Assembly: GCA_030695945.1 (NCBI GenBank)
Contig: JAUYOG010000057.1
Span: 62,001-126,000 of the forward strand
DNA from: Ramlibacter sp.
GTDB lineage: Bacteria; Pseudomonadota; Gammaproteobacteria; Burkholderiales; Burkholderiaceae_C
Length of the DNA: 64,000 bases
Reading direction: 5' to 3'
In this document: positions 23,995 to 59,302 of the stretch, piece after piece
Position numbering within the stretch: position 1 is the first letter of the stretch
How the letters are laid out: each line of letters starts with the position of its first letter
Position numbers and translations under genes: made by a program
The notes under the pieces: model-generated
What the model was told of the DNA's origin: nothing
The model's input: only the letters and a program-made list of their open reading frames with translations
The model's database searches: none

Positions 23995-24846
23995 ATGAGT
24001 GATTTGAAGTTCGTGCCGGCCGACACGCTCGCGCCCGATACCCTGCACACGGCGTTCGCCAGCGCCTTTTCAGACTACCTGCTCGGCCCCTTCAACCTGC
24101 CGCTGGAACAGTGGCCGGTGTTCATCGGACGCCAGGCTGCGGATCTCTCCCTCAGTCGCGCCGCCCTGCGCGACGGCCATCTGCTCGCGTTCGCGCTGGT
24201 TGCCCCGCGGCCCGAGATCGGCCATTGGCGGCTGGCGACGATGGGCGCGGTGCCCGAAGCCCGCGGCAGCGGCGCCGCGCCGGCGTTGCTGGACGACTTC
24301 ATCGCGCGCGCCGCCGCGGCAGGCATGCGCGGCGTGGAGCTGGAATGCTTCGCGCAGAACGAGCGGGCGCAGCGGCTGTACCGCGCGCGCGGCTTCGAGC
24401 CCGTGCATCCGCTGTATGGTTATGTGCGCGCCGCAGGTGCGCCCTTGCCCACGGACGACTCGGCTGGAGTCGCCAGCAACATCGATGTGTCCACCGCATT
24501 CGCGTGGCTGGACCAGTGCAACATCGAATTCGGTGACCTGCCGCTGCAGGTGACGCCCCCGTCGCTGCGCGCGCAGCCGGTCGCGCTGCAGGCGTGGCAG
24601 CGCGGCTCGGCGCAACTGGTGTTCGCCGAGAGCGGGCCGGACACCGTGGTGATCCATAGCCTCGTCGACCGAGAGCGTGGGCAGGAAGATGCGCAGGCGC
24701 TCGTGGCGCAGCTGGTGCGGCAGCACCTCGCGTGTCGCATCGCCGTGCCCCAATTGCAGCGTCCCGACCTCGGCGGCGAGGCGCTGGAGCGGCTCGGCTT
24801 CGAGCGGCAACCGCTGCACCAGCTGCTGATGCGCCGGCCGGCCTAG
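23995..24846 (+). CDS. GNAT-family N-acetyltransferase
   Basis: LATMGAVPEARGSGAAPALLDDFIARAAAAGMRGVELECFAQNERAQRLYRARGFEPVHPLYGY. Confidence 0.9.
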   Translation: MSDLKFVPADTLAPDTLHTAFASAFSDYLLGPFNLPLEQWPVFIGRQAADLSLSRAALRDGHLLAFALVAPRPEIGHWRLATMGAVPEARGSGAAPALLDDFIARAAAAGMRGVELECFAQNERAQRLYRARGFEPVHPLYGYVRAAGAPLPTDDSAGVASNIDVSTAFAWLDQCNIEFGDLPLQVTPPSLRAQPVALQAWQRGSAQLVFAESGPDTVVIHSLVDRERGQEDAQALVAQLVRQHLACRIAVPQLQRPDLGGEALERLGFERQPLHQLLMRRPA

Positions 24847-25149
24847 GAGGCTGGGCGGCAGAAATTGGTGTGCCGGCATTGTTGGCGGGACCAGGCCGGT
24901 GGGGCACTCTGCTCCGCGAATGTCCCCCGTCGCCCTTGCGGGCTACCTCCGCCTTTATTTCGCTGCGCAGAGCGCCCCACCGTCCCGGCCTGTGGTCTCT
25001 GTGGTCTGTATGTGCGTTCGAGCGACGCACCCCGGGTCAAGGGCGTCGGGTGGCCGACGCAGCGAAATAAAGGCGGAGGAAGCGGGCGTGCCCGCGCCGG
25101 GGGACATTCGCGGAGTCGGCCGCCCGGCGTCCTTGACCAGCGCGGACCT
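24844..25149 (+). repeat. convergent-intergenic modular repeat, copy 1 (two hairpin modules)
   Basis: ctctgctccgcgaatgtcccccgtcgcccttgcgggctacctccgcctttatttcgctgcgcagag ... gtcaagggcgtcgggtggccgacgcagcgaaataaaggcggagg...gggggacattcgcggagtcggccgcccggcgtccttgac; shared with 53.1 and 59.0 kb. Confidence 0.9.
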
Positions 25150-52164: not shown

Positions 52165-53070
52165 TTGAGCGCTTCTTTTGCGTTGGCCCTGAACGCCGCC
52201 CGTGAAGCGGCGGGGTCGCAGCATTATCCGCAAGGTGCGCTGTACGTCGTCGCGACGCCGATCGGCAACCTCGCCGACATCTCCCTGCGCGCCCTGCACG
52301 TGCTGCAGCTCGCCGACACCATCGCCTGCGAGGACACGCGCCATACCCAGGCGCTGCTGCGCGCCTATGGCATCGACAAGGCCTCCGCGCAACTGCTCGC
52401 GGTGCACCAGCACAACGAATCCGAAGCGGCGCAGGCGGTGGCCGAGCGTTTGCGCTCCGGGCAGCGCGTGGCCTATGCGAGCGACGCCGGCACGCCGGCG
52501 GTGAGCGACCCGGGCGCGCGCCTGGCCGCCGCCGTGCGCGAGGCCGGCTTGCGCGTGGTGCCGATGCCGGGCGCAAGCAGCGTGACGGCGGTGCTGAGCG
52601 TGGCGGGTGCGGCGGGTGACGACGGCGCCTTCGTGTTTGCGGGCTTCCTGCCCAGCAAGGCCGGCGAGCGCGACACGGCGGTGGCGAGCCTCGCCGCCGA
52701 GGTCCGGCCGGTCGTTCTGCTCGAAGCGCCGCATCGCGTCGAGGCGCTGGCCAAGTCGCTGGCCGCGCTGGGCGATCGCCGCGTGACGGTCGGGCGCGAG
52801 CTGACCAAGCAATTCGAGGAGGTGGCGACGCTGGCGTGCAGGGACTTGCCCGGGTGGCTGGCCTCGGATGCGCAGCGCACGCGCGGCGAGTTCGCCCTCG
52901 TGCTGCACGGCGCGCCGGGCGCGCCCCAAGCGGATGACGGCCTGCGGGTGCTCGAACTGCTGCTGAAGGAACTGCCGGTGAAAACCGCCGTGAAGCTCGC
53001 GGCCGAGATCACGGGCGGGTCTCGCAATGAGCTGTATGAGGCAGCGCTGCGGATCAGGGGTGCGGCCTAG
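52165..53070 (+). CDS. rsmI: 16S rRNA (cytidine1402-2'-O)-methyltransferase (TTG start likely)
   Basis: GALYVVATPIGNLADISLRALHVLQLADTIACEDTRHTQALLRAYGI...YASDAGTPAVSDPGARL..VPMPGASSVTAVLSVAG. Confidence 0.95.
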   Translation: MSASFALALNAAREAAGSQHYPQGALYVVATPIGNLADISLRALHVLQLADTIACEDTRHTQALLRAYGIDKASAQLLAVHQHNESEAAQAVAERLRSGQRVAYASDAGTPAVSDPGARLAAAVREAGLRVVPMPGASSVTAVLSVAGAAGDDGAFVFAGFLPSKAGERDTAVASLAAEVRPVVLLEAPHRVEALAKSLAALGDRRVTVGRELTKQFEEVATLACRDLPGWLASDAQRTRGEFALVLHGAPGAPQADDGLRVLELLLKELPVKTAVKLAAEITGGSRNELYEAALRIRGAA

Positions 53071-53305
53071 GAGCCTGGGCGGCAGGAGGAGAGTGTGCGC
53101 TGGTCAAGGACGCCGGGCGGCCAACTCCGCGAATGTCCCCCGGCGCGGGCACGCCCGCTTCCTCCTCCTTTATTTCGCTGCGTCGGCCACCCGACGCCCT
53201 TGACCCGGAGTGAGCCGCTCGAACGCCCCGAGAGACCGCACGCCGGCGTGGTCCCGCCAAGGCTGCTGGCACACCCGCTTCTGCCGCCCAGCCTTCCAGC
53301 GGTCA
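53068..53305 (-). repeat. convergent-intergenic modular repeat, copy 2 (one hairpin module)
   Basis: Minus-strand copy of the 24.8/59.0 kb element lacking the CTCTGC...GCAGAG module; ends share ggctgggcggcag inverted termini. Confidence 0.9.
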
Positions 53306-58061: not shown

Positions 58062-59003
58062 ATGCCGCGCGTCGCCCTTATCCAGAGTCCGCCGGTGTTC
58101 CTTGATCGCGCTGCCACGCTCGACCGCGCGGTGGCGGCCGTCGACGAGGCGGCTCGCGGCGGGGCCCAGCTCATCGTCTTCCCGGAAGCCTACGTCCCGG
58201 GCTATCCGGCATGGATCTGGCGGCTGCGCCCCGGTGGAGACATGGCGCTCACCGAGCAGCTGTGTGCGCTGCTTCGCGCCAATGCCGTCGACCTGGACGC
58301 CGACGATCTGCAACCGCTGCGCGAGGCCGCCAAACGCAATTCAGTCACGATCGTATGCGGCATTAACGAGCGCGACGGCGGATTCAGCCGCAGCACGATC
58401 TACAACACGGTGGTGACCATCGGACCCGACGGAGCGCTGCTCAACCGCCATCGCAAGGTCATGCCCACCAACCCGGAGCGCATGGTCTGGGGCTTTGGCG
58501 ACGCCAGCGGGCTGAAGCCTGTCGACACGCCCGCGGGTCGCATTGGCGCGCTGATCTGCTGGGAGAATTACATGCCGCTCGCGCGCTGCGCCATGTATGC
58601 GCAAGGCGTCGACATCTACGTGGCGCCCACCTACGACAGCGGCGAGCGCTGGCTCGCGTCGATGCAGCACGTCGCGCGCGAAGGCGGATGCTGGGTGCTC
58701 GGCAGCTGCAGTGCCTTCCAGGCGCGCGACTTGCCCGACACCCTGCCCGGCAAGGCGGCGCTGTATCCCTCGCCCGATGAGTGGGTCAATGGTGGCGACT
58801 CGGTGGTCGTGGCGCCGGGCGGCAAGATCTTGGCCGGTCCGCTGCACGAGGCCCATGGCACCGTGGTGGCGGACATCGACCTCGCCGCGTCCGGCGCCGC
58901 GCGGCGCACCCTCGACGTGGTCGGCCACTATGCGCGGCCGGACCTGTTCCAGTTGCACGTCAACACCCGGCCTTCGCAGCCGGTCGTCTTCAGCCAGGAG
59001 TGA
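58062..59003 (+). CDS. nitrilase-superfamily carbon-nitrogen hydrolase
   Basis: LIVFPEAYVPGYPAWIW; NRHRKVMPTNPERMVWGFGD; GALICWENYMPLARCAMYAQGVDIYVAPTYD: Glu-Lys-Cys triad motifs of aliphatic/aryl nitrilases. Confidence 0.93.
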   Translation: MPRVALIQSPPVFLDRAATLDRAVAAVDEAARGGAQLIVFPEAYVPGYPAWIWRLRPGGDMALTEQLCALLRANAVDLDADDLQPLREAAKRNSVTIVCGINERDGGFSRSTIYNTVVTIGPDGALLNRHRKVMPTNPERMVWGFGDASGLKPVDTPAGRIGALICWENYMPLARCAMYAQGVDIYVAPTYDSGERWLASMQHVAREGGCWVLGSCSAFQARDLPDTLPGKAALYPSPDEWVNGGDSVVVAPGGKILAGPLHEAHGTVVADIDLAASGAARRTLDVVGHYARPDLFQLHVNTRPSQPVVFSQE

Positions 59004-59029
59004 GCCGCGCAAGTGCGGCGCGTGGGAGC

Positions 59030-59302
59030 AGCCTTGGCGGGACCAGGCCGGCGGGGCACTCTGCTCCGCGAATGTCCCCCGTCGCCCTTGCGGGCTACCT
59101 CCTCCTTTATTTCGCTGCGCAGAGCGCCCCACCGTCCTGGTCCTGCGGCGTCCATGGCGTTCGAGCGTCGCACCCCGGTCAAGGGCGTCGGGTGGCCGAC
59201 GCAGCGAAATAAAGGAGGAGGAAGCGGGCGTGCCCGCGCCGGGGGACATTCGCGGAGTTGGCCGCCCGGCGTCCTTGACCAGCGCACTTTCCTTCTGCCG
59301 CT
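59030..59302 (+). repeat. convergent-intergenic modular repeat, copy 3 (two hairpin modules)
   Basis: Near-identical to copy 1 over both modules; between nitrilase (+) and metY (-). Confidence 0.9.

Follow-up and report, generated by a model that had tools for sequence, protein, structure and literature searches.

What kind of DNA fills the gaps between convergent genes in this region, and how did it get there? The question arises from a 64,000-nt window of a Ramlibacter genome (positions 62001-126000 of contig C43; assembly of 3.75 Mb in 73 contigs, 79% complete), for which a sequence-only reading had described three related elements of 230-305 bp, each filling the gap between two convergent genes, and had offered a bidirectional terminator, a 3'-end-targeting MITE or a 3'UTR-derived RNA as explanations. 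For the window itself the description is accurate. Sequence comparison places related elements at 24847-25148, 53071-53302 and 59004-59300, in gaps of 302, 232 and 297 bp, and all six flanking genes, which are convergent in each case, are backed by Pfam.

A covariance model trained on 61 units from other genomes only identifies five hairpins at the three places, and the strand given here for each is the purine strand. Copy 1 (24847-25148) occupies the whole gap between a GNAT gene (+, stop at 24846) and a histidine-kinase gene with a HATPase_c domain (-, 3' end at 25149). It is a full doublet, with hairpin units at 24888-24991 (-; 76.6 bits; fold of -66.8 kcal/mol versus -55.1 for the other strand) and 25034-25139 (+; 87.1 bits; -73.7 versus -59.7 kcal/mol). 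An outer inverted-repeat arm, AGGAGGCTGGGCGGCAGAA, can be read from the sequence at 24845-24863 (+), where it shares bases with the GNAT stop codon (TAG). Copy 2 (53071-53302) lies between rsmI (+, stop at 53070) and priA (-, 3' end at 53303) and holds a single intact hairpin at 53101-53206 (-; 90.7 bits; -69.8 versus -51.5 kcal/mol), the second being mostly lost with remnants of its outer part left. Copy 3 (59004-59300), again a full doublet, separates a nitrilase gene (CN_hydrolase; +, stop at 59003) from metY (Cys_Met_Meta_PP; -, 3' end at 59301), and its units are found at 59040-59143 (-; 83.2 bits; -68.5 versus -59.7 kcal/mol) and 59176-59281 (+; 90.8 bits; -69.9 versus -52.2 kcal/mol). 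The 306-nt fold of the element has a z of -5.8.

The repeat unit is a hairpin of about 105 nt, composed of a variable outer stem, an invariant asymmetric inner loop and a variable apical stem. Along the purine-rich strand the order is outer stem (about 24 pairs), GCGAARYMAAGGAGGAG, apical stem-loop, CGGGGGACATKMGC and the return of the outer stem, so that GCGAARYMAAGGAGGAG / CGGGGGACATKMGC make up the purine strand of the inner loop. In unit alignments the loop positions are near-invariant while both stems vary, and both stems covary strongly. Double changes that preserve pairing occur at 29 of 31 predicted pairs. Across 108 distinct units, Watson-Crick pairs make up 0.82 of the outer stem, compared with 0.41 when partners are shuffled (at most 0.43 in 500 shuffles), and 22 of its 23 positions show all four pair types.

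Units are combined in a fixed order. Outside the source genome, 43 of 44 pairs show one inverted arrangement, with the pyrimidine strand leading in either reading direction, and a further 21 units are solitary. Within the source genome the stems of corresponding hairpins of different doublets are 79% identical, versus 54% for left and right hairpins, indicating that the two hairpins of a doublet are propagated together. Conservation is concentrated inside the element and is lowest at its outer ends; the outer inverted repeat AGGAGGCTGGGCGGCAGAA / TTCTGCCGCCCAGGCTCCT is found only in a subset of the source-genome copies and is missing from many. Neither a target-site duplication nor sharp common ends were recognised when the copy alignments were inspected by eye. 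In one other genome (G020), about half of the copies share a left extension outside the hairpin, TGTCATTGCGGGCTTGACCC...CACAGCGACCGTGTGCG, which may be the true end of that subfamily, and several contigs of the same assembly terminate exactly at an element. An expanded variant in another genome (G023) has an apical part lengthened from about 20 to about 40 nt, while its loop strands are unchanged.

The two strands of the hairpin are not equivalent. In the outer stem, 206 pairs are G-T/G-U when read on the purine strand and A-C on its complement, against 44 of the reverse kind (p about 3e-26, a value that serves only as a guide given the shared ancestry of the units). Counted per unit, 80 favour the purine strand and 7 the other. 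For the five window hairpins the purine strand is 9 to 18 kcal/mol more stable than its complement. Since both orientations are present in each doublet, biases of replication or transcription should average out, and the pattern suggests that the purine strand has been selected to fold. Within the loop, an A/G position covaries with TC/GA opposite (47 plus 49 of the 108 distinct units, with 12 others), a coupling that fits a putative replacement of Watson-Crick pairs by tandem G-A pairs. The same pattern of strand bias and coupling would be left by RNA and by single-stranded DNA. Conceivably the loop strands could also form a two-layer G-quadruplex or an intrastrand triplex, or act as an anti-Shine-Dalgarno mimic.

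When copy 3 was used as BLAST query against the 3.75-Mb assembly, 74 matching pieces at about 34 places were obtained, with E down to 1e-144, a recurrence far above chance. The matches fall into two main sequence groups, about 92% and about 77% identical, and the covariance model returns 54 hairpin matches at the same places. The modular repeat family proposed by the sequence-only reading is thus real, and consists mostly of doublets of hairpin units.

The sequence-only reading had further proposed that the family is restricted to convergent 3' ends, and had suggested tabulating the flanks of all BLASTN hits against random intergenic placement. With contexts assigned by a simple home-made codon-usage gene caller, and by Pfam for the six window genes, the 33 placed copies of the source genome comprise 20 convergent, 13 tandem, 0 divergent and 0 intragenic sites. 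In other named genomes the corresponding numbers are 23, 38, 3 and 0. Element-free intergenic bases in 498 kb, taken as background, are 11% convergent, 52% tandem and 37% divergent. The enrichment over random placement was therefore confirmed (20/33 against 11%, p about 1e-11), as was the absence from genes, but tandem sites are common and the restriction to convergent ends fails. The rule is rather that a copy adjoins the 3' end of a gene, with an excess at convergent pairs. In the source genome this excess persists against an expectation of 30% for 3' ends only (p about 2e-4) and goes beyond what a simple avoidance of promoters and genes would produce, whereas in the other named genomes it reaches p about 0.06 against the same null, and promoter avoidance accounts for most of it. 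The shares of targeting to 3' ends and of selection against insertions into promoters and coding regions cannot be separated here. Solitary units in tandem gaps are sense to the upstream gene in 5 cases and antisense in 7, and thus show no preference of orientation.

The family extends well beyond Ramlibacter. An exact-pattern scan of public genomes gave at least 116 stretches, and the matches listed include the Betaproteobacteria Variovorax, Ramlibacter, Rhodoferax, Hydrogenophaga, Rubrivivax, Acidovorax, Pseudorhodoferax, Xylophilus, Sulfurisoma and others, as well as Luteimonas, Lysobacter, Thermomonas, Pseudoxanthomonas, [Pseudomonas] hibiscicola and Xanthomonas records. Of 399 genomes drawn evenly across the order, 15, from several families, contain the exact pattern, and the reversed pattern gave 0 matches everywhere. 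Judged by these pattern matches, the family appears to have reached several groups within the beta- and gammaproteobacteria. One contig with the label Bacillus subtilis SK7B5 also bears a full doublet and is probably a contaminant or mislabelled. A phage or plasmid origin was considered and rejected: phage records gave no match to the element pattern, and plasmid matches are limited to three Variovorax replicons, each larger than 1 Mb. Two IMG/VR contigs match, both of which appear by inspection only to be mostly host DNA.

Comparison of orthologous junctions bears directly on how the copies arose. G003, the nearest relative, likewise has convergent nitrilase and metY genes, whose proteins are nearly identical to those of the source genome, but only 3 bp, versus 297 bp, lie between the stop codons. 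Likewise, most relatives that have kept the convergent rsmI-priA pair have a gap of 0-83 bp, and the element is absent at this junction in all of them. Such element-free orthologous sites, at both junctions, are what is expected of a MITE. The number of model matches in the 19 genomes of the genus searched ranges from 0 to 67 per genome and is 0 in ten of them; some genomes carry many near-identical copies, and the model reveals sets of copies with equal scores in G020 as well as the expanded variant in G023. Near-identical copies could also arise by gene conversion, absence from orthologous junctions could partly reflect loss, and no event of transposition was observed. Our main reading, to which we assign a probability of roughly 0.6, is that the family is a mobile, non-autonomous, REPIN-like repeat. 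Unrelated palindromes are found at the rsmI-priA junctions of three relatives and the metY junctions of two, of the types CCCTCTCCC...GGGAGAGGG, TTCCCGCCTTCGCGGGAA and GTAGG, one metY junction holding a nested palindrome of about 270 bp; it is as if convergent junctions of this sort generally receive or tolerate hairpin repeats. At the rsmI-priA junction of one relative there is also what we take to be a TM-like motif.

A repeat of this kind needs a mover, and RAYT transposases are the known movers of REPIN-type doublets (PMC2817692, PMC3116915). A Y1_Tnp gene was found in all 12 carrier genomes first tested, usually as one gene, but none of the 14 Y1_Tnp loci in these genomes has an element core within 1.5 kb. 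Two carriers, G207 and G223 (100% and 99% complete), hold 13 exact cores each and gave no Y1_Tnp match, and a Y1_Tnp gene is present in ten element-free genomes. From these two groups it follows that the resident Y1_Tnp is not the general mobiliser; a recent loss of RAYT in G207 and G223 is possible. The family also departs from the REP/REPIN definition in other ways. Inverted palindromic doublets do spread together, as the 43 of 44 pairs and the in-register match indicate, but the unit alignments contain no GT(A/G)G or CGTC head beside a palindrome of 20-40 nt, and no cognate RAYT flanked by the same repeat was seen. Membership of the RAYT/REP system as defined was accordingly rejected. Across the genus, every tested genome has a RAYT-like Y1_Tnp gene, usually single, and that of the source genome (contig C52, 56443-56772) is bordered by AATTGGGGTCAGATTCCAATT-type palindromes, without the element. 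No mobiliser was found. An autonomous form, with a gene between two hairpins, was also considered, and the sole candidate holds, as judged by eye, a small membrane-protein-like gene, not a transposase.

Several features would also be accounted for if the element worked as RNA at gene 3' ends, being read through from either side and kept because its purine-loop hairpin helps the flanking mRNAs, whether by blocking 3'-to-5' decay, by binding a conserved protein or by Shine-Dalgarno mimicry through AAAGGAGG. In the source genome the copies always adjoin a 3' end, the doublet presents one purine hairpin to each convergent transcript, the wobble pairs are strand-specific, and covarying stems round an invariant loop with coupled non-Watson-Crick changes are typical of RNA motifs. 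On the other hand, solitary units in tandem gaps show no orientation preference (5 sense and 7 antisense), and relatives do without the element at the orthologous junctions. A catalogued RNA family was rejected, as Rfam 15 at gathering score has no match in the whole window, and the same 3'-end bias has been reported for REPs in general (PMC3733652). We regard the 3'UTR-derived RNA of the sequence-only reading as rather improbable.

Of the explanations offered by that reading the 3'-end-targeting MITE comes closest, in that the element is MITE-like and stands beside 3' ends, even though targeting and selection are inseparable. In its classical form, with a DDE transposase recognising terminal inverted repeats in double-stranded DNA and insertion targeted to 3' ends, it would agree with the size of 230-305 bp, with the outer inverted repeat of some copies and with the convergent excess of the source genome above the 3'-end-only null. 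We nevertheless consider it quite unlikely, because the outer ends are the least conserved part, the outer repeat is absent from many copies and no target-site duplication was recognised, and also because the conservation is internal and the wobble bias, which needs a folded single strand, is not predicted by a double-strand mechanism. A bidirectional terminator evolved for convergent genes is very unlikely indeed. Strong hairpins readable from both sides and the convergent enrichment would suit it, and the pyrimidine-rich loop strand could attract Rho, which is an idea only. However, a scan for intrinsic terminators (on each strand, a G/C-rich hairpin with a T run behind it) finds none in copies 2 and 3 and one weak match inside the loop of copy 1, so that this proposal is unsupported for the window copies. 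Moreover, 39% of the source-genome copies, and the majority of those elsewhere, lie outside convergent gaps, and element-free convergent gaps have a median length of 18 bp, showing that most convergent pairs do without the element.

The mobile REPIN-like reading leads to the following proposal. The moving unit would be the inverted doublet of two hairpins of about 105 nt, with the invariant purine-rich inner loop held between variable, self-complementary stems. An enzyme acting in trans may recognise the inner loop once the purine-rich strand, as single-stranded DNA or as an RNA copy, has folded, and could copy the doublet to new places. Copies would then survive mostly just downstream of genes, and between convergent genes in particular, presumably because those that land in a gene or promoter are eliminated; a degree of targeting to 3' ends may contribute. 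More tentatively, the family may represent an undescribed class of mobile palindromes in beta- and gammaproteobacteria, for which the signal is a non-Watson-Crick purine loop in a strand-specific hairpin and the mover a dedicated single-strand- or RNA-dependent enzyme, neither a RAYT nor a catalogued transposase.

Among bacterial hairpin repeats, REPINs are the most familiar, and they are linked to RAYT transposases. The present family resembles them, yet it has carriers without RAYT, a loop as its constant part and apparent selection for folding of one strand, which makes the mover of RAYT-less palindromic repeats a testable question. The loop is a ready bait for pull-downs, and carrier and non-carrier genomes provide a ready comparison for co-occurring genes. 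The covariance model is also of use to annotators; the family spans many genera of Betaproteobacteria and Xanthomonadaceae.

The sequence-only reading had recognised no named family, and this was borne out in Rfam and in the literature. The element core was not found in the text of the literature searched, and the papers on BRE, the triplex motif, spaced motifs and a survey of REPs gave no match, BRE being compared by description only. The family is apparently an unnamed variant of palindromic mobile repeat. The TM intrastrand-triplex motif is palindromic, G/C-rich and widespread in bacteria, and lies upstream of ORFs more often than downstream in E. coli (PMC4666352); the element differs from it in sequence and is longer. 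BRE, a betaproteobacterial repeat element of 75-91 bp with direct tandem arrays of up to 8 and some intragenic copies (PMC3110155), shares with the element its occurrence in Betaproteobacteria including Comamonadaceae, its mostly intergenic location and its high G+C content. The element is longer, forms inverted doublets and is never intragenic, and is set apart by the description of BRE, although the two may be identical. Like MITEs, it is small, non-coding, palindromic and dispersed, with element-free orthologous junctions, but it has no terminal inverted repeat conserved in all copies, no recognised target-site duplication and no parent IS found. The closest likeness is to the REP/REPIN elements moved by RAYT transposases (PMC3116915, PMC2817692, PMC3733652). 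Both spread as inverted palindromic doublets with compensatory changes and leave singlets behind, and both are present in many intergenic copies per genome, in convergent and unidirectional rather than divergent contexts. In contrast to REPINs, the unit described here measures about 105 nt instead of 20-40, does not flank a Y1_Tnp gene, occurs in carriers without any Y1_Tnp, and has its constant part in an internal loop, not in a GT(A/G)G or CGTC head.
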